Positions 3,890-43,217 of a stretch of 64,000 nt of DNA are shown here, piece after piece. The notes below the pieces were generated by a model. The model did not search any database and was not told the origin of the DNA. It saw only the letters and a list, made by a program, of their open reading frames with translations. Each line of letters begins with the position of its first letter. Positions within the stretch are counted from its first letter, which is position 1. The DNA lies in NCBI RefSeq assembly GCF_022374895.2, contig NZ_CP092423.2, forward strand, positions 4,340,001 to 4,404,000. Direction: 5' to 3'. Origin of the DNA: Mycobacterium lentiflavum (GTDB lineage: Bacteria; Actinomycetota; Actinomycetes; Mycobacteriales; Mycobacteriaceae). The position numbers and the translations under genes were made by a program.

Positions 3890-8784
<4,895 letters not shown>

Positions 8785-9000
8785 ACTCCTCGATAGACGA
8801 GGTGTATTTCGAATCAGAGAAAATCTGACCTAACAAAAAGACACCATACTTACTGGCATCAAAAAACGACCATACCCACACACGGGGAGTGTTAAAAGTA
8901 TGGTCAAAAAAACAACAACAAACAAAAACACCAAACACACTATTGAGTTCTCAAACAACACTCTTGCTTATTTCGCCCGCTTCGGGGCAACCCTGCCAGC

Positions 9001-9027
9001 TTAATACAGATCCGGCAGAGGCGTCAA
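9001..9027 (-). promoter_or_regulatory. rrn promoter PCL1
   Basis: Minus strand: TTGACG at 9027-9022, 15 nt, TATTAA at 9006-9001. It is followed by CTGGCAGGGTTGCCCCGAAG, the start region conserved in mycobacterial rRNA operons. The block TTGAC-CTGCCGGAT-GTATTA is the same as in the well-known PCL1 promoter. Confidence 0.88.
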
Positions 9028-9079
9028 CCCCCAAATTTCTTGCGATCGTGGTGATCGCTGCGAGGGCAGCCGTGCCAGG

Positions 9080-9106
9080 TTAGTACCAATCCGGCGAGGG
9101 AGTCAA
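9080..9106 (-). promoter_or_regulatory. rrn promoter P1
   Basis: Minus strand: TTGACT at 9106-9101, 15 nt including GCCGGATTGG, TACTAA at 9085-9080, then CCTGGCACGG. It has the same design as PCL1, 79 nt upstream, so the two look like a duplication of one promoter cassette. P1 lies about 55 nt past the murA stop. Confidence 0.82.
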
Positions 9107-9161
9107 GCCCCGGTCTCGGTCTCCTTCGGGGGTGACCGCGCCTGTGGGGCACTGACTTTGG

Positions 9162-10415
9162 TTACTGTACCCGCTCGATCTCCGCTCCCAAAATCGCCAG
9201 GTTTTCGACGAACAGTGGGTAGCCGCGATCGATGTGAAAGACGTCGTGGACCTCGGTGTCGCCGTCGGCGACAAGCCCGGCTAGCACCAGGCCGGCGCCG
9301 GCCCGAATATCCGAACACCAGACCGGTGCGCTGGAAAGTTGCGGCAGGCCCCGCACCACGGCGTGGTGGCCGTCGGTGCGCGCGTCGGCGCCCAGCCGGA
9401 TCATTTCTTCGACGAATCGAAAGCGCGCCTCGAAGACGTTTTCCGTGATCATCGAGGTGCCGTCGGCGATCGATGCCAGCGCAATCGCCATCGGTTGCAG
9501 GTCCGTCGGAAAACCGGGAAACGGCAACGTCGCAACGTTCATCGCCTTCGGACGCTCGTACTGCGTCACGCGAAAACTATTGTCTGTCTGGGTGACGGTG
9601 GCACCCGCGTCGTGCAATTTGTGCAGCACCACCTGAAGATGCGCCGGATCGATACCGCTGATCGAGATGTCGCCGCGAGTGATGGCAGCGGCGATCCCCC
9701 AGGTGGCCGCGACGATGCGGTCACCGATCACTCGGTGCTCGGTCGGGTACAGCCGCGGGACCCCGGTAATCGTCATGGTCGGCGAACCCGCGCCCACGAT
9801 CTGCGCGCCCATCTGGTTGAGCATCGTGCACAGGTCGACGACGTCGGGTTCCCGCGCGGCATTGTGGATCGTGGTGACGCCCTCGGCGACCACGGCGGCC
9901 ATCAGGATGTTCTCGGTGGCACCCACCGAGGGGAATTCCAATTGAATCTCCGCGCCGCGCAACGCATCTGCGTGAGCGACGACGCACCCGTGCTCGATGT
10001 TGCACGTCGCACCCAGTTGCCGCAGACCCGCCTGATGCATATCCAGCGGGCGCGAGCCGATCGCATCGCCACCGGGCAGCGCCACTTTGGCCCGCTTGCA
10101 CCGGCCGACCAGCGGACCCAGCACGCACACCGAGGCGCGGAACTGCCGCACCGCGGCGAAGTCCGCGTCGTACTTGGGCTCGTCGGGTGAGGTGATGCGG
10201 GCGACGTCACCGTCGAGTTCGACGGTGGCGCCCAGGCCGCGCAGGACCTCGGCCATCAGCGGCACATCGAGAATGTCGGGGCAGTTGGTGATGGTGCTGG
10301 TGCCTTCGGCCAGCAGGGTCGCGGCCATCAGCTTGAGCACGCTGTTCTTGGCGCCCCCTACTGCGACTTCGCCGGACAACCGGTTGCCGCCGGTTACCAC
10401 GAATCGCTCAGCCAC
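9162..10415 (-). CDS. murA: UDP-N-acetylglucosamine 1-carboxyvinyltransferase
   Basis: First committed enzyme of peptidoglycan synthesis: it moves enolpyruvate from PEP to UDP-GlcNAc in the cytoplasm. It has 417 residues and the inside-out alpha/beta barrel of the EPSP-synthase family, starting [17 protein letters not shown]. The active-site loop reads [11 protein letters not shown]. Asp117 stands where most bacteria have the Cys that fosfomycin alkylates, as in M. tuberculosis, so intrinsic fosfomycin resistance is expected. GTG start at 10415, only 7 nt after a TAGACT -10, so the mRNA is probably leaderless. It runs into the rRNA promoter region, the usual mycobacterial rrnA arrangement. 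Confidence 0.97.
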
Positions 10416-10422
10416 CCGCGTC

Positions 10423-10451
10423 AGTCTAGTGAAGCGGTATCGGCTTGTCAG
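10423..10451 (-). promoter_or_regulatory. murA promoter
   Basis: Minus strand: CTGACA (10451-10446), exactly 17 nt, TAGACT (10428-10423), then 7 nt to the GTG start. Five of six -35 bases match TTGACA and the -10 fits TANNNT. The spacing predicts a start at or next to the first base of the coding region. Confidence 0.72.
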
Positions 10452-10473
10452 TCGGCTAACTCACTTCGCCGAG

Positions 10474-10479
10474 TACGGT
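10474..10479 (+). promoter_or_regulatory. -10 element of the adenosyltransferase gene (leaderless)
   Basis: TACGGT, then 6 nt (TTGTTC), then ATG 10486. This fits the mycobacterial TANNNT box placed for transcription starting at the ATG. No good -35 is visible. It sits back-to-back with the murA promoter within about 60 bp. Confidence 0.5.
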
Positions 10480-10485
10480 TTGTTC

Positions 10486-11070
10486 ATGGCAGTCCATCTG
10501 ACCCGCATCTATACCCGGACCGGCGACGACGGCACGACGGGATTGAGCGACTTCTCCCGCGTGTCGAAAAACGATCCCCGCCTGGTGGCATACGCGGACT
10601 GCGACGAGGCCAACAGCGCGATCGGCGCCGCCATCGCGCTGGGTCGGCCCGACGCCGAACTCGCGGACGTGCTGACCCAGATCCAAAACGATTTGTTCGA
10701 CGCAGGCGCCGATCTGTCCACTCCGGTGGTGGAGAACCCGAAATATCCTCCGTTGCGCGTCGCCCAGTCCTACATCGACCGGCTCGAAGAATGGTGTGAC
10801 AAATACAACGAGCGGCTGCCGGCGCTGAATTCCTTTGTGCTGCCCGGCGGTTCGCCTTTGTCGGCGCTGTTGCACGTCGCCCGCACCGTGGTGCGGCGCG
10901 CCGAGCGATCCGCTTGGGCCGCAGTCGATTCGGCACCGAACGACGTCAACGTGCTGCCGGCGAAATACCTGAATCGGCTCTCGGACCTACTCTTCATCCT
11001 GTCGCGGGTAGCCAACGCCGGCGGCGAGGTGCTTTGGAAACCAGCAGGGAAGCCGGGCGGCGGCGCCTAA
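10486..11070 (+). CDS. PduO-type cob(I)alamin adenosyltransferase
   Basis: Transfers the adenosyl group of ATP to cob(I)alamin to make coenzyme B12. 194 residues, homologous in position and sequence to Rv1314c. The N-terminal ATP-binding motif YTRTGDDGTTGLSDFSRV is complete. The helical trimer-forming core includes the conserved VLPGGS and RRAERSAW stretches (SFVLPGGSPLSALLHVART, then RRAERSAW). ATG 10486 is chosen from the motif position and the -10 box 6 nt upstream; a longer frame from 10087 would run through the divergent murA gene. It ends 20 nt from the convergent DUF2550 gene. The IS gene that separates these neighbours in M. tuberculosis (Rv1313c) is absent. Confidence 0.93.
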   Translation: MAVHLTRIYTRTGDDGTTGLSDFSRVSKNDPRLVAYADCDEANSAIGAAIALGRPDAELADVLTQIQNDLFDAGADLSTPVVENPKYPPLRVAQSYIDRLEEWCDKYNERLPALNSFVLPGGSPLSALLHVARTVVRRAERSAWAAVDSAPNDVNVLPAKYLNRLSDLLFILSRVANAGGEVLWKPAGKPGGGA

Positions 11071-11090
11071 ACCGGTTGAGCCACTTTTCA

Positions 11091-11534
11091 TTAGATGCTG
11101 CGACGCCGTGCGCGCGGGGACGGACGGGACTCCAGCCACGACAAGAACGCGGTCAACGCGCCCTGATCGAGCGCGATTTCGTAACCCGACCGGCGTTCCT
11201 GCGTCGTATCGCGTAGTTCCAGCACCACGATCTTGTCGGTCATGATGTCGAACTCGTCGCCGCGCGGCGCGCGCCGAGCCACGATCTCGACGCCTCGCCG
11301 GCTCAGCCGGCGATCCGGCCAGAGCCGGACACTGGAGAGCCGGTAAAACGCGGCTTCACCTCCGCGATAACGGATTACGCCGTGCCGCCAGCCGTGACCC
11401 CCGACCGCCGGGATGTCGCGCATGATGCCGGCCGTTCCGCCCTGCCGGAGTTTCAGCAGCCGATAACTCAGCGCCAGTACCGCAGCTCCCAACACGACGA
11501 CGAGCACGACCATGCCAACCATGGGCGCGCTCAT
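11091..11534 (-). CDS. DUF2550 membrane-anchored protein
   Basis: A 147-residue protein with one N-terminal transmembrane segment (VGMVVLVVVLGAAVLALSY) followed by a basic soluble domain. It is the counterpart of Rv1312, a conserved actinobacterial protein of unknown function (DUF2550). It follows atpC by 16 nt on the same strand, so it is probably cotranscribed with the ATP synthase genes. Whether it acts on the enzyme is not known. Confidence 0.88.
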   Translation of the reverse strand: MSAPMVGMVVLVVVLGAAVLALSYRLLKLRQGGTAGIMRDIPAVGGHGWRHGVIRYRGGEAAFYRLSSVRLWPDRRLSRRGVEIVARRAPRGDEFDIMTDKIVVLELRDTTQERRSGYEIALDQGALTAFLSWLESRPSPRARRRSI

Positions 11535-11550
11535 CGCCTTGTCCTAACGG

Positions 11551-11916
11551 CTAGTCGATCGCGCCGACGGCGCGCAACCTCGCGCGGCCCCGGGCGGCAA
11601 CACGAGGATCGTCGGACTCGGAGTCTTGCTTGGCGGAAGCCTCGTCGATCTCCGACTCGAATTCGGCGGATTCGGCGAGAATGGTCACGCTCTCCTCGGT
11701 CACCGACAAGAACCCGCCATCCACCGCGACCCGTAGATCGTCTTCGCCCTCGCGCTCGACGCGCACCATTGCGTCATCGACCAATTGGGCCACCAACGGG
11801 ATATGGCGGGGCAGGATACCGATCTCGCCGGCGGTGGTTCGGGTGAATAGGAACGACGCCTCCCCCGACCAGATCTTGCGGTCGACGGCGACGATCTCAA
11901 CGTTCAATTCAGCCAC
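11551..11916 (-). CDS. atpC: F1Fo ATP synthase subunit epsilon
   Basis: Central-stalk subunit, 121 residues, the same length as in M. tuberculosis. The N-terminal beta-sandwich ([20 protein letters not shown] and [16 protein letters not shown]) is clear. The C-terminal helix region is short, as in other mycobacteria, where epsilon helps keep ATP hydrolysis latent. It is the last of the canonical atp genes, 29 nt behind atpD. Confidence 0.97.
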
Positions 11917-37649: not shown

Positions 37650-38630
37650 TTAGCGTTGCTCGGTGGAGTGCTCGACAACGTTGGGTTGACGAAGACCGGG
37701 CGCATCAGCCGAGATCGGGCCACGCAGTTGCCGCGCGGTGGCCGTGAACCAGCCGAGATGGAATTCGTCGCCGTCGGCCAAAAACGCCGAGCGGAGTTCG
37801 TACCACGGCAGGCCCGGATGCCGGTGATGCACGCCATGCAAATTGAATGCGAGGAGCAACCGTTCCAGGAGTCCGGGCAGCCGGAGGTTCAGCGCCTCCA
37901 ACCGCGCGTCCAGGCGGGTGCCGTAGTGGTAGGCGTTGTCCGCGATGGAGATCAGCACCGCGCGGGCGACGAGCGCGGCGACGAGCATCCAGACGTGCCG
38001 ACCGTAGGCGAAGCCCGCCGCCACGTACACCAGGACCACCGAAACCGCATCCGCACGGAACTCGCGGAGGTGCCGTCGGCTGATGCCCTCGAGCAACATG
38101 CCGGCGAACGTGTCGGGCGAATCGAGCAGGCGCGCCAGGTAGCGCCAGAGCCGGCGCGGCGCGGCGACGAGTAACACCGAAGCGGCCTCGATGACGTAAA
38201 GCCCACCGAGAAGATGCAGGTAGTAACCAGGAGCCGCGGCCGCCCAACTCGAGGTTGCCGGATCATAGATCTCGGTCCGTTCCCGGCGGGTCCGGTTGTA
38301 GCGGTGATGCAGGAGATGAGCGGACTTGAGCAGCACGAAAGGTGCACCATAGCCGATGGCAAGTACCCGCCCGAACCGGTCGTTCCATGGCCTGTGGCCG
38401 ATCAAAGTGCCGTGGATGGCTTCGTGGATCAGCGACCAGAACGGCATTGAGAGCAGCGCGATCGGTACTAGCAGCCATCCGAAGGCCGCATCTGCCGGCA
38501 GCATCCAGAGCGGCAGGACCACCAGCTGGAGGACGAGGCCGGCCAGTGTCGCCACCACCACGCACGAGGTGACGCTGCCAGACCCACCGTCTTGGGTGGC
38601 CCGCCAGACCGACGAGTGGACTAGTGCCAT
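37650..38630 (-). CDS. Fatty acid desaturase-family membrane protein
   Basis: 326 residues, four or more transmembrane helices. It has the three histidine boxes of the membrane di-iron desaturase/hydroxylase family: HEAIHG (~69-74), HLLHH (~105) and NLHGVHHRHPGLPW (~265). It should use O2 and two electrons on a lipid substrate. Desaturase, hydroxylase and ketolase cannot be told apart by eye. GGGGAG lies before ATG 38630. It follows a small membrane-protein gene on the same strand by 113 nt. Confidence 0.88.
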   Translation of the reverse strand: MALVHSSVWRATQDGGSGSVTSCVVVATLAGLVLQLVVLPLWMLPADAAFGWLLVPIALLSMPFWSLIHEAIHGTLIGHRPWNDRFGRVLAIGYGAPFVLLKSAHLLHHRYNRTRRERTEIYDPATSSWAAAAPGYYLHLLGGLYVIEAASVLLVAAPRRLWRYLARLLDSPDTFAGMLLEGISRRHLREFRADAVSVVLVYVAAGFAYGRHVWMLVAALVARAVLISIADNAYHYGTRLDARLEALNLRLPGLLERLLLAFNLHGVHHRHPGLPWYELRSAFLADGDEFHLGWFTATARQLRGPISADAPGLRQPNVVEHSTEQR

Positions 38631-38743
38631 TATCGCCTGCTCCCCTGTTCAGGATCTGTTGACGCGTGACGGAGCTGATTCGGTTCACCGTTGAACCGCT
38701 TGGTCTGACCTCGGCCTCGGTACGCATGGCTGCGGCCGCGCAC

Positions 38744-39151
38744 TCAGCGAACGGATGCCCCGTGGGTGCCTGCGCCGCGCCTGGCTAGCACGAGCAGTGC
38801 ACCGGCATAGAGGAAGTCGGACGCGGTGCCAATGATCACGGGCGGTGCAATAGTCACCACGATGTTCGGGGTGCCCGCCAGCGCATGGCCCAGATAGAGC
38901 CAAACCGCACTCAGTGTCGAAGTTCCGAGCGCGGCCAACCAGAAGCCGCGCACGGGATTCGACGGCCAGCGGAAAAGCCGTTCCAGGATCAGCGCCGCCA
39001 CCAGGGTCGCGATCACGCTCAGTGCTAGCTGCGCGAAGCCCGCGTGCATCTCCGCGGCCAAGCCGAGCCGGTGGTGAGTAAACGCCGCCCAGCAACCGTA
39101 TGCCACGCCCCCGATCAGCGCGGCCAACACTGGCCGGGCATGCTCGCTCAT
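38744..39151 (-). CDS. Small four-helix membrane protein
   Basis: 135 residues with four hydrophobic segments (for example VLAALIGGVAYGCWAAF, LALSVIATLVAALILE and TIAPPVIIGTASDFLYAGAL). Not recognised. ATG 39151 (MSEHARPVL) is chosen because the upstream extension of the frame to 39298 is low-complexity and AT-rich and has no match to coding style. It lies upstream of the desaturase on the same strand and may act with it. Confidence 0.7.
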   Translation of the reverse strand: MSEHARPVLAALIGGVAYGCWAAFTHHRLGLAAEMHAGFAQLALSVIATLVAALILERLFRWPSNPVRGFWLAALGTSTLSAVWLYLGHALAGTPNIVVTIAPPVIIGTASDFLYAGALLVLARRGAGTHGASVR

Positions 39152-39664
39152 GCGCACCCGGCGACTGGCCCGTGCCCGATCGGCCTGAGCACTTTTGTGA
39201 CAAGCAATTTGATGGAAGGTGTATTTACGGTACAAGAATTTATCGCGCCGAAAACTGCGGTACGCATGACAACCCTTTTTCTCGGGTACGTTAAGCATTG
39301 ATTCAGCTTGCCGCTATTGCTTTCTTCGCGGATATCCTCGCACCGCCCCGGGTTATCCGCAACGACCTTGGCCTCCAAATCTTGCGTTTCGGGCGAGTGG
39401 TAGCCACCGGTGGGTAAGACAACCTGTCAGTCTCGTTGCCATTGCGTGGCCAGTCAGTGACGAAACGTGTTGGCATGTAAGTGTGTTGAGCGGCGGCCCA
39501 GGTTGCGGTTAGGGTTGGTGCGCAGCCTTCGAGGGTTGGCCATAACCGGCCCCTATGCATTTCGCTCGACGGTGTGTGCCGTTGACGTGATCGACCCACG
39601 CGACTAGCGTTTGGCCGTTCGACGATATGTAATGCGTGATAGTGGCGACAGAAAGGCTGAATTC
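39152..39664. other. 513-nt intergenic region with no gene
   Basis: It separates the divergent desaturase pair (minus) and the hydroxylase pair (plus). The stretch 39190-39330 is markedly richer in A+T than the surroundings and contains only short unsupported frames. The right end holds a good promoter (39582-39610) and the ribosome binding site of the first hydroxylase gene. No RNA gene was recognised. Confidence 0.6.
39582..39610 (+). promoter_or_regulatory. SigA-type promoter of the hydroxylase pair
   Basis: TTGACG (39582-39587), exactly 17 nt, TAGCGT (39605-39610). The start would be near 39617, giving a leader of about 48 nt that contains GAAAGG 8 nt before ATG 39665. One of the best-looking promoters in the window. 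Confidence 0.7.
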
Positions 39665-40516
39665 ATGGCACGTTCGGTCCGGCGCACCGCGGGTGTCGAA
39701 GACACTTTGAGCCGGCCTGGACTCGTGAATCGAGCGTTGATGGGTGTCGCCGAATGGGCTCAGGAGCTCAACGAGAAGTACTCGAAACTCGGTAATCGAC
39801 CCGTGTATAACGTCGGCGACTTTCCGTGGGCGATGGACGTCGAGCGCGAGTGGCACCACATCCGCACCGAACTCGACAGCCTGCTTACCCGCAAGGAGGA
39901 ATTGCCCGGCTGCCACGAGATCTTGAGTGAGCTGCGCTCGATCAGCACCGACCGCGACTGGAAAACGTTTGTCTTCGCCTGCTATGGCGCCAAGTCGGAT
40001 GAGGCCATTCGTCGGTGTCCGCAAACCTGGCGCATCCTGCAGACGATCCCCGGCATGAAGACGGCGATGTTCTCGGTGCTCGAGCCAGGAAAGCACCTCA
40101 AGCCGCATCGCGGACCCTACAACGGCGTGCTGCGCCTGCACCTCGGCCTGCTCGTGCCGGACGCGCCGCCCCGCACGGTCGCGATCAGGGTGGACGACAC
40201 AGTCTGCGAGTGGGACGAAGGCAAGGTCCTGATCTTCGACGACTCCTACGAGCACGAGGCGTGGAACCGTTCCGACGATACCCGCGTCGTGCTGTTCGTG
40301 GACTTCGTTAAGCCGCTGCGTTTCCCGGCCTCCTTCGTCAATTGGCTGCTCCTCAACATCGCAGCCTTCACCCCATTCATCAGGGAGGGGAAGAAGGCTC
40401 ATAAGGAATGGGAGAAGGGCTTTTACCGAAACGGGGACTCGTTGGAGACTGGCGCGCCGTCAGCGCCCGCCAGTCTCCAACGAGTCCCGACGCACCGCTC
40501 GAGCCGCACGGTATAA
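39665..40516 (+). CDS. Aspartyl/asparaginyl beta-hydroxylase-like protein, first copy
   Basis: 283 residues of the Fe(II)/2-oxoglutarate beta-hydroxylase family (Asp_Arg_Hydrox; LpxO is a lipid-acting relative). The iron site is the His of KPHRGPYNGVLRLHLGL and the His of IFDDSYEHEAWN; the Arg of RLHL would hold 2-oxoglutarate. ATG 39665 has GAAAGG in front and follows a strong promoter. The last ~28 residues lie in and after a 21-bp perfect inverted repeat and look foreign to the family. It is followed 18 nt later by a paralogue. Substrate unknown: protein Asp/Asn or a lipid acyl chain. Confidence 0.88.
   Translation: MARSVRRTAGVEDTLSRPGLVNRALMGVAEWAQELNEKYSKLGNRPVYNVGDFPWAMDVEREWHHIRTELDSLLTRKEELPGCHEILSELRSISTDRDWKTFVFACYGAKSDEAIRRCPQTWRILQTIPGMKTAMFSVLEPGKHLKPHRGPYNGVLRLHLGLLVPDAPPRTVAIRVDDTVCEWDEGKVLIFDDSYEHEAWNRSDDTRVVLFVDFVKPLRFPASFVNWLLLNIAAFTPFIREGKKAHKEWEKGFYRNGDSLETGAPSAPASLQRVPTHRSSRTV
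40434..40488. repeat. 21-bp perfect inverted repeat at the end of the first hydroxylase gene
   Basis: Arms 40434-40454 (beginning GGGACTCG) and 40468-40488 (ending CGAGTCCC) are exact reverse complements over 21 bp around a 13-nt loop. It lies inside the coding frame and codes for the aberrant C-terminal tail. No T-run follows. It could be a palindromic insertion, a transcription-attenuating hairpin between the two paralogues, or an RNase site. Confidence 0.9.
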
Positions 40517-40534
40517 GGCGTACGAGCGATCGGA

Positions 40535-41305
40535 ATGTTCTCGAGGACAGTCGAATACAAGATGGTAAGGCTCAAGTCCGGCCGCGAACTGATCATCACC
40601 TTCGGCCTCTGGCTGTTACCGATCGTCGACCGGATCATGATGCGGTTCGCCGCAACTGAGGAATACCAGGTCTTCCCGAACGAGGTTTTCGCCTGGACGA
40701 CCGACCTCGCCGAGAACTGGACCGCCATCCGTGACGAGGCGCAGGAGTTGATGCGCGACCCGATGGCCGTACCCGCGTTGCGCGACGTTTCGGTCGATCA
40801 CGAAAAGATCGCGGTCGATGGCCGCTGGCGCTCCTTTTTCCTGTGGGGCTACGGGATCCGCAGCGACGTGAACTGCGCCCGCTGTCCAGAGACGGCGCGG
40901 GCCCTCGAGCGCATCCCGGGCCTATTGACCGCTATGTACTCGGTGATGCTGCCCGGCGCGCATGTGCCGCGCCACACCGGGCCGACCAAGGCCATCGTCA
41001 CCGCCCACCTGGGCCTCATGGTGCCGCGCGACCGCCAGAAATGTCGGATGGCAATCGGCGACCATGAGGTGGTATGGCAAGAGGGCCAAATCTCGATCTT
41101 CGACGACATGTTCCCGCACGAGGTGTGGAACAACACCGAGGATCACCGCGTCATCTTGCTACTCCACGTGAAGCGCCCGCTGCGCTTCCCCGGCTCGCTG
41201 GTGCGCGACGCCTTGTTCGCGCTGTTGCGGGCGAGCCCGTTCGTGCGCGACGGGGTGCGCAACATCGAGCAGTGGCACGAGACGCAAACTGCCGCAACGG
41301 ATTAA
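40535..41305 (+). CDS. Aspartyl/asparaginyl beta-hydroxylase-like protein, second copy
   Basis: 256 residues, paralogue of the preceding gene with the same order of motifs: VPRHTGPTKAIVTAHLGLMV (iron His and 2-oxoglutarate region) and IFDDMFPHEVWNNTEDHRV (second iron His). The N-terminal ~40 residues are hydrophobic (LIITFGLWLLPIVDRIMM), which suggests a membrane anchor. ATG 40535 is used; ATG 40562 is also possible, and neither has a clear ribosome binding site, which fits translation coupled to the first copy. Its stop overlaps the convergent gene by 4 nt. Confidence 0.86.
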   Translation: MFSRTVEYKMVRLKSGRELIITFGLWLLPIVDRIMMRFAATEEYQVFPNEVFAWTTDLAENWTAIRDEAQELMRDPMAVPALRDVSVDHEKIAVDGRWRSFFLWGYGIRSDVNCARCPETARALERIPGLLTAMYSVMLPGAHVPRHTGPTKAIVTAHLGLMVPRDRQKCRMAIGDHEVVWQEGQISIFDDMFPHEVWNNTEDHRVILLLHVKRPLRFPGSLVRDALFALLRASPFVRDGVRNIEQWHETQTAATD

Positions 41306-41838
41306 CGGTGCGTCTTAGTCGTGACCGTCGACTGCCAGATTGTCACCGCCAGCAGCGTGATGAAGGCGACGGCGCCGAGCAACGCCGACAGGGCATGTGC
41401 AATCTCCCATGTCTGCCGAAAAGAAGTCCAGTCTGCAGGTAGCGTGCCCGGTGTCCAGCCGGCCACTTCGGCGTTCACCGGCCGGTTTCCGAAGTAGTAG
41501 CTGACTAGCGTGCCGAACAGGCACAGCGAGGAAAAGGCGGGCGCGATGGCGCCGCAGGGCCGCCGCCGCGACAACATGGCATCGCCCCCGCTGGCCACCA
41601 GGCCGACGATTTCGGCGGCGCCGCCGACGACGGCGAAGCCCCCGTAAAAAGTGTGCTGCACAATCAGCCAAGTCGGACCATCTAGCCCGCGGCTGCCCGG
41701 CGATTGCAAGACATGCGCCAGGGTCAGGCCGAAGACGAGCGAGCTGGCCAACAGACCGGTGAATCGAAGTGCTCTGTGCATTGGGGTCACGAAGCCGAGG
41801 TACCCGTTTGTGCTCGATTGCACGGCGCTCGCTGACAT
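41302..41838 (-). CDS. DUF1772-like (anthrone oxygenase-like) membrane protein
   Basis: 178 residues, four predicted membrane helices (RFTGLLASSLVFGLTLAHVL, VQHTFYGGFAVVGGAAEIVG, FSSLCLFGTLVSYYF, ALSALLGAVAFITLLAVTIW). The loop NRPVNAEVAGWTPGTLPADW with RQTWEIAH resembles the DUF1772 family. Function unknown. It overlaps the second hydroxylase gene by 4 nt tail-to-tail. Confidence 0.7.
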   Translation of the reverse strand: MSASAVQSSTNGYLGFVTPMHRALRFTGLLASSLVFGLTLAHVLQSPGSRGLDGPTWLIVQHTFYGGFAVVGGAAEIVGLVASGGDAMLSRRRPCGAIAPAFSSLCLFGTLVSYYFGNRPVNAEVAGWTPGTLPADWTSFRQTWEIAHALSALLGAVAFITLLAVTIWQSTVTTKTHR

Positions 41839-41981
41839 GCCAGCCGTAAGGACGGCGTCAGGCGAGTTGTAATCGGCTGTGCAGCAATGCCATTGTTAGC
41901 AGCTCTATCGGTCAGCGCAAATCCATCCGGCGGTCGGTTCGACTTCGCCACCCGCTAACCCGGCCGCCGCACCAGGACGCG

Positions 41982-41987
41982 TAGCCT
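41982..41987 (+). promoter_or_regulatory. -10 element of the phosphoesterase gene (leaderless)
   Basis: TAGCCT, 6 nt, then GTG 41994. The spacing predicts a transcript starting at the GTG. No ribosome binding site is present, which supports this. Confidence 0.5.
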
Positions 41988-41993
41988 GACGCC

Positions 41994-42713
41994 GTGCGGA
42001 TTCTTGCCGCGTCCGATTTGCACTACCGCCTGGCTCACTACGACTGGCTCGTCGCGCAGGCACCCTCAGCGGACATTGTCGCGATCGTCGGTGATCTCGC
42101 TGACGCGGTCAGTGCCGTGCCGCTCGAGGTGCAGATCGTCGTGCTCGAACGCTATCTGGATCGGTTGGCAGACGTCGCCGCGGTTCTGGTTGTTTCCGGC
42201 AATCACGACCTGGACGGCCCTGGTGAACACGGCGAGCAAGTCGCCTCGTGGCTGCGCCGATCGCGGGCCGGGCGCTTCTTCTCCGACGGCCAAAGCGTCG
42301 ATATCGACCGATACCGCTTCACCATGTGCCCATGGTGGGACGGCGAAATCACCAAGAAGGCGGTGGCGCAGCAGCTAGCGACGGCCGCCGTCGAGCGGCC
42401 CGAGTGCTGGGTCTGGCTACACCACGCGCCGCCTGCCGGCACAGTGCTGTGTAACGACGGGCGGCGGGTCTTCGCCGATGCGGATCTGGCGGCCTGGATT
42501 GCCCAGTACGAACCCGATATGGTCCTCAGCGGCCACATTCACCAGGCGCCATGGGTCAAGGGCGGGTCCTGGCACGATCGTCTCGGCCAGACCCTGGTCT
42601 TCAATGCCGGCAAGCAGGCGGGCATGGTTCCGCCGCACATCATGATCGACACCGAAGCCGGTACCGCCGACTGGTTCGGGGTGTTCGGCGGCGAATCGAT
42701 CTGCCTCAAATAG
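41994..42713 (+). CDS. Calcineurin-like metallophosphoesterase
   Basis: 239 residues with the complete two-metal signature in order: ASDLHYR (D-x-H), VGDLAD (GDxxD), SGNHDLDG (GNHD/E), the histidine in WLHHAPPAG and SGHIHQAPW (GHxH). A phosphodiesterase or phosphatase; the substrate cannot be given. GTG start directly behind a -10 box. Monocistronic by layout; the next gene is convergent. Confidence 0.9.
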   Translation: MRILAASDLHYRLAHYDWLVAQAPSADIVAIVGDLADAVSAVPLEVQIVVLERYLDRLADVAAVLVVSGNHDLDGPGEHGEQVASWLRRSRAGRFFSDGQSVDIDRYRFTMCPWWDGEITKKAVAQQLATAAVERPECWVWLHHAPPAGTVLCNDGRRVFADADLAAWIAQYEPDMVLSGHIHQAPWVKGGSWHDRLGQTLVFNAGKQAGMVPPHIMIDTEAGTADWFGVFGGESICLK

Positions 42714-42722
42714 CGGCGATCA

Positions 42723-43217
42723 TCAGCCGTCGGGGTCGCGAACCGAGCCGGGCCGGACCGCCGCGTGGTGGTGCACCAACGTGTCGACGATCTGTCCGAG
42801 CATGCCCAGGTGGCCCACTTCGTCGGCCAACTGCTCCTTGACGTCGACGAGATAGCGGGTCAGGCCGTCCAGCCGCGACGCGGTCAAGCGCAGTACTGCC
42901 AGGGCGGCGCCGGGCCGTTCAGTAAGAAAGGTTTCCGGATCGTCGATGACGTGGCACTGCGTCTCGGAGCTCGCCCGAACGCTTGCCGTGGCCGGTTGAC
43001 CGAGCACCAGCGCCATCTCGCCGAACACCGCGCCGGGAGTGTCAATCCGCGCGAAGGGCACATCGTCACGCTCGACCGTCACCGATCCGGATGTCAGGAC
43101 GTAGAGGCGAGACGCCAGCCGGCCGGCTTCGATGATGAGTTCACCGGGTTGCCACGACTCTCGAGGGAGATCGGCGCACAAGGCCAGCAGGTCGCTCACT
43201 GCTGCAGTATGGATCAT
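42723..43217 (-). CDS. Cyclic nucleotide-binding domain protein without a DNA-binding part
   Basis: 164 residues. The N-terminal ~110 residues form a cNMP-binding beta-roll (LYVLTSGSVTVERDDVPF, then GAVFGEMALVLGQPATASVR, close to the phosphate-binding cassette GEMAL...RSA). The helix-turn-helix of CRP proteins is missing; the rest is a helical tail ending in HHHAAVRPGSVRDPDG. It may be a sensor or partner protein rather than a regulator. Ligand unknown. Confidence 0.82.
   Translation of the reverse strand: MIHTAAVSDLLALCADLPRESWQPGELIIEAGRLASRLYVLTSGSVTVERDDVPFARIDTPGAVFGEMALVLGQPATASVRASSETQCHVIDDPETFLTERPGAALAVLRLTASRLDGLTRYLVDVKEQLADEVGHLGMLGQIVDTLVHHHAAVRPGSVRDPDG

Follow-up and report, generated by a model that had tools for sequence, protein, structure and literature searches.

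The Mycobacterium lentiflavum window (the whole stretch of 64,000 nucleotides analysed here, from a genome of 6.16 Mb) contains a four-gene unit, desatA–tmB–hydC–hydD, that, judged from sequence, is probably a horizontally acquired cassette for the modification of ornithine lipid. HydC would be an OlsC enzyme, and HydD and the products of desatA and tmB would accompany it. The original prediction had proposed that a set of LpxO-type enzymes uses O2 to modify an envelope lipid. The analysis supports that proposal and makes it more specific: because HydC groups with OlsC, and its orthologues sit in loci that contain the ornithine-lipid synthesis genes olsB and olsA, ornithine lipid is the most likely target.

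Two of the genes occupy the reverse strand: desatA (37650–38630), which encodes a putative membrane di-iron protein of the FA_desaturase family (PF00487; 326 residues), and tmB (38744–39151), which encodes a small protein of 135 residues, predicted to have four membrane helices and assigned to no family. Divergent from these, on the forward strand, are the tandem genes hydC (about 39665–40516; 283 residues from a conserved ATG), for the predicted OlsC-type ornithine-lipid acyl 2-hydroxylase, and, after a gap of 18 bp, hydD (40535–41305), for a second enzyme of the Asp/Asn-hydroxylase family that belongs to a divergent clade and has Thr at the position of AspH R688. The intergenic region (39152–39664) presumably carries the promoters of both tmB–desatA and hydC–hydD. 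Aligned across four species, it displays conserved blocks near 39200–39290 and at the hydC start, where an AGAAAGG...ATG block suggests initiation at 39665. A GGTTCA..TGAACC palindrome upstream of desatA was considered as an operator and rejected, because it is missing from M. ahvazicum. As originally noted, hydC and hydD are tandem Asp/Asn-hydroxylase-family genes: both products match PF05118 in Pfam (E 1.5e-51 for HydC, 3.7e-46 for HydD), and they are the sole two PF05118 genes of the genome. The hydrophobic N-terminus also ascribed to HydD is weak, with a best 19-residue Kyte–Doolittle mean of 1.52 versus 0.33 for HydC.

The best NCBIfam model for HydC is that of OlsC (NF052565), on which it scores 401.9 bits, below the curated cut-off of 450. 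Its mycobacterial relatives score 372–399 bits on this model, and three alphaproteobacterial OlsC proteins that we tested score 510–523. Among 84,980 genomes, the closest relatives of HydC outside the mycobacteria are alphaproteobacterial proteins of 55–64% identity; R. leucaenae OlsC is 58% identical. HydC and OlsC form one clade in IQ-TREE analyses (98/96 with LpxO in the tree, 100/99 without it), and in the latter tree the other mycobacterial PF05118 proteins fall outside it. By alignment, HydC keeps all of the Fe/2-oxoglutarate residues of the AspH type (equivalents of H679, H725, R735 and R688), as do the OlsC enzymes of Rhizobium tropici, Brucella microti and Ochrobactrum. Unlike these, HydC occurs in an actinobacterial host and scores under the curated cut-off, and whereas none of the sampled alphaproteobacterial OlsC genes is adjoined by hydD, desatA or tmB, hydC comes with all three. 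The kinship with LpxO, the lipid A hydroxylase, that had been suggested for both enzymes holds as to the PF05118 family and its chemistry, but HydC groups with OlsC (402 versus 129 bits on the two models); on the LpxO model (NF033391, cut-off 500 bits) HydC reaches only those 129 bits and HydD 101. Mycobacteria are not known to make lipid A. OlsC activity in B. microti, an alphaproteobacterial relative, has been shown by deletion and complementation (PMC5767591). Homology and synteny together give strong grounds for predicting that HydC is an ornithine-lipid ester-acyl 2-hydroxylase, both as to its substrate and as to the position that it modifies.

Synteny with olsBA is the strongest evidence for the ornithine-lipid substrate, and comes from two loci, one of them in a metagenome-assembled genome. 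In this last, Mycobacterium RYN_167 (L052), genes for homologues of OlsB and OlsA come directly after a hydC orthologue (70% identity) and share its strand. In the second, from the mycobacterial genome G849 (L164), olsB (8309–9124), olsA (about 9121–9951), a relative of hydD (9957–10730; 48% identity, opposite strand) and hydC (10834–11628; 64%) are adjacent. The acyltransferases of both loci have OlsB and OlsA as their best NCBIfam matches, at scores well below the curated cut-offs (mycobacterial OlsB 117 of 320 bits, OlsA 81 of 300). Because the two loci have flanking genes in common, for a DMT transporter and an FHA-domain protein, they may represent a single event. G849 also possesses an ancestral olsBA pair, beside iscS–trmU, and its hydroxylase locus is therefore a second, dedicated set.

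The window genome has a single olsB, with olsA behind it, at this same ancestral site beside iscS–trmU (C1, about 1.733 Mb), 2.6 Mb from the cassette, a distance that counts against the ornithine-lipid reading; the best NCBIfam matches are again OlsB (8e-34) and OlsA (7e-23), below their curated cut-offs. All four species that carry the cassette have olsB. The olsBA pair is intact in three of them, that of M. triplex and M. ahvazicum standing at the same ancestral site, whereas the M. genavense contig breaks off within olsB. We take the ancestral site to be the Rv3027c–Rv3026c locus of M. tuberculosis. In that species, rv3027c and rv3026c, reported as putative acyltransferases, show 10- and 7-fold induction when pstA1 is mutated (PMC6016242), and the ornithine lipids increase 1020-fold in the absence of phosphate (PMC12722247). 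Two further genes lie beside the olsBA pair of the window genome (L129:5687–8665; C1, about 1.7297–1.7327 Mb): one for a fatty acyl ligase and one for an alpha-oxoamine synthase that NCBIfam matches best to serine palmitoyltransferase (313 bits against a cut-off of 500). Both also adjoin olsB in each of the three other cassette species, and are absent from the stretch read around the ancestral olsBA of G849; they possibly provide a sphingolipid-like or amino-ketone lipid step.

Three other species, M. ahvazicum, M. triplex and M. genavense, have the four genes arranged and oriented as in the window, with identities to the window orthologues of 77–83% for desatA, 75–86% for tmB, 84–87% for hydC and 80–89% for hydD. 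Pairwise dN/dS among the cassettes is 0.13–0.34 (0.23–0.32 for desatA, about 0.2 for hydD), and the four-gene cassette is under purifying selection. Of 198 genomes sampled from the genus, 17 have PF05118; with the tandem, desatA and tmB conserved in order and orientation in three further species, this argues that the set did not come together by chance. Orthologues of hydD (80% identity or more) occur in four of 396 genomes of the genus, all four of which also hold an adjacent desatA, and those of desatA in only six of the 396; among 296 Actinomycetota genomes, no hydD orthologue was found outside the window genome itself. The carrier species are related, so this co-occurrence amounts to few independent events. 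Checked in this way across mycobacterial genomes, as had been proposed, the co-occurrence of the genes originally grouped together passes for four of the five. The fifth, tmE (41302–41838, reverse strand), which encodes a small membrane protein of 178 residues with a weak, below-cut-off match to PF08592, was rejected as a partner, since no homologue of it is present in any other cassette. Of the two small membrane proteins in the original prediction, then, both exist but only tmB recurs with the cassette.

Two different gene neighbourhoods surround the four cassettes. That of M. triplex is shared by M. genavense, and M. ahvazicum has one gene, ‘cmd’ (94%), in common with the window. Horizontal acquisition is probable, because few mycobacteria carry the cassette, the family is otherwise alphaproteobacterial and the flanks differ; the tree is compatible with transfer in either direction. 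Several peculiarities of the individual loci may be recorded here. In the window, cmd is separated from the cassette by tmE and by genes for a calcineurin-like phosphoesterase and a cNMP-binding protein (41302–43217), all three of which are missing from the corresponding interval of M. ahvazicum, only about 1.3 kb long. M. ahvazicum contig NZ_FXEG02000003.1 contains two copies of the cassette region, each of 14.87 kb and 100% identical to the other, that lie some 47 kb from one another; they reflect either a recent duplication or an assembly artefact. In M. genavense (L035:8686–9545), hydC is frameshifted and the HydD motif HTGPT reads HTKST. Loss of the cassette from this species was considered; other genes of the same draft are also frame-broken, so the damage may be decay or sequencing error.

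The desatA product belongs to PF00487 (E 1.1e-23; 84.8 bits, cut-off 29.7) and has three His boxes (HEAIH, HLLHH and HGVHH), so that the original label of di-iron desaturase stands as to family; as to reaction, desaturation and hydroxylation are both possible. Its best NCBIfam matches, both sub-threshold, are hydroxylases: the beta-carotene hydroxylase CrtR (1.5e-6; 27.5 of 475 bits) and the arginine hydroxylase GntB (4.7e-4; 19.7 of 380 bits). A PDB sequence search with desatA returned only spurious matches to designed repeat proteins, and the structure predictions (pLDDT 42 for desatA, 58 for tmB) were of too low a quality to support fold searches. TmB has no Pfam or NCBIfam match, and its four helices are predicted with low confidence. 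We infer, weakly, roles for both proteins in ornithine-lipid modification. A conceivable functional analogue of desatA is OlsE, which hydroxylates the ornithine head group by membrane di-iron chemistry; OlsE belongs to family PF04116, whereas desatA matches PF00487 only.

It is possible, though less likely than not, that HydC acts on ornithine lipid but that desatA and tmB, perhaps together with HydD, were simply inherited along with it and work on another lipid (carotenoids or free acyl chains, for example). The resemblance of desatA to CrtR and GntB, though weak, points this way, and relatives of desatA stand without hydroxylases in three genomes (G173, G089 and G222); an M. riyadhense plasmid carries a relative of tmB not far from a wax ester synthase gene. 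A search of plasmids for desatA found none. G849, moreover, has hydC and hydD without desatA, the RYN_167 locus also does without it, and neither desatA nor tmB was ever seen in an olsBA locus. Yet desatA and tmB accompany hydC and hydD in four of four cassettes, in two different sets of flanks.

HydD is only 34% identical to HydC and lies outside the OlsC clade. It scores 212 bits on the OlsC model, and no NCBIfam model other than those of OlsC and LpxO matched it. It groups instead with proteins from plasmids of Novosphingobium and Novacetimonas (40–44% identity; 99/93 and 100/99 in two trees), although long branches make its exact position unsure. The genes for those proteins adjoin kds/capsule genes or a Rieske gene, unlike hydD. 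In the numbering of AspH, the only solved relative that we found for it, HydD retains S668, H679, H690, H725 and R735, and Thr replaces R688 in every HydD. In AspH, R688 contacts the C-1 carboxylate of 2-oxoglutarate and the substrate, and the R688Q change lowers kcat about 20-fold without raising the Km for 2-oxoglutarate (PMC12816917). The replacement could therefore be taken to mean that HydD has lost its 2-oxoglutarate oxygenase activity and now serves HydC as a degenerate or regulatory partner. We consider this unlikely: all the other ligands are kept, dN/dS is about 0.2, and the same Thr is found in the Novosphingobium, Novacetimonas and G849 proteins. From these residues and the behaviour of the AspH mutant, HydD probably still works as an oxygenase but contacts its substrate differently. 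Its place in the G849 locus and in the cassette argues with moderate force that it, too, may act on ornithine lipid, in which case a possible functional analogue is the amide-acyl hydroxylase OlsD of Burkholderia.

Other mycobacterial PF05118 proteins raise the question of whether HydC and HydD serve a different envelope lipid, a lipopeptide or the product of a non-ribosomal peptide synthetase (NRPS). On M. riyadhense plasmid p1, a PF05118 homologue comes after an NRPS gene, and in genome G146 another is found among genes for an acyl-AMP ligase, a glycosyltransferase and an acyltransferase (read from translations only). Such an assignment is improbable for the cassette, since these proteins fall in clades separate from both HydC and HydD, the immediate neighbours of the window cassette include no NRPS or PKS, and hydC orthologues sit with olsBA. 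In their own right, the NRPS and hydroxylase of the 472-kb plasmid (L133:1–11201), which also carries the tmB relative, are a possible beta-hydroxylating lipopeptide pathway, and the G146 locus (L037:3521–13224), a third mycobacterial PF05118 clade, has a sulfotransferase-like gene nearby, again by translation only. Hydroxylation of Asp or Asn in a membrane protein, the alternative target first entertained, has the family name and the AspH structure in its favour, but it is not supported and seems very unlikely, given that HydC groups with a lipid hydroxylase and that its relatives are syntenic with ornithine-lipid genes.

If the cassette does modify ornithine lipid, we envisage the following. 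The lipid would be made by the chromosomal olsB and olsA elsewhere in the genome. At the membrane, HydC, with Fe(II), 2-oxoglutarate and O2, would 2-hydroxylate its ester-linked acyl chain, and HydD, co-transcribed with HydC, might hydroxylate lipids of this class at another site; the amide-linked chain, the target of Burkholderia OlsD, is one candidate. DesatA could introduce a further O2-dependent change, a double bond or a hydroxyl group, into the same lipid or its acyl supply, and TmB would be an accessory membrane protein. That these steps together yield a multiply modified ornithine lipid, bearing OlsC-type and Thr-type HydD hydroxylations and the desatA change, for use in phosphate-poor niches such as the phagosome, is a speculation that we put forward tentatively and with some doubt; if true, the lipid would be of a type not described in any bacterium. 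The novelty of the cassette would lie in a known activity, that of OlsC, in a new setting, together with a new second class of hydroxylase and a desaturase-family partner. In the literature that we searched, which took in few of the subscription journals, we found no report of a mycobacterial OlsC.

Ornithine lipids are phosphorus-free membrane lipids, formed by M. tuberculosis on exhaustion of phosphate, and rhizobial stress tolerance has been linked to their hydroxylation. The adjacency of hydC relatives to genes of the Rv3027c–Rv3026c type supports the view that such genes are the mycobacterial OlsBA, and the cassette offers a direct and testable prediction from gene to lipid. If slow growers such as M. 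triplex, M. genavense and their relatives do have an OlsC alongside a second class of hydroxylase, they would be able to tune their ornithine lipid.
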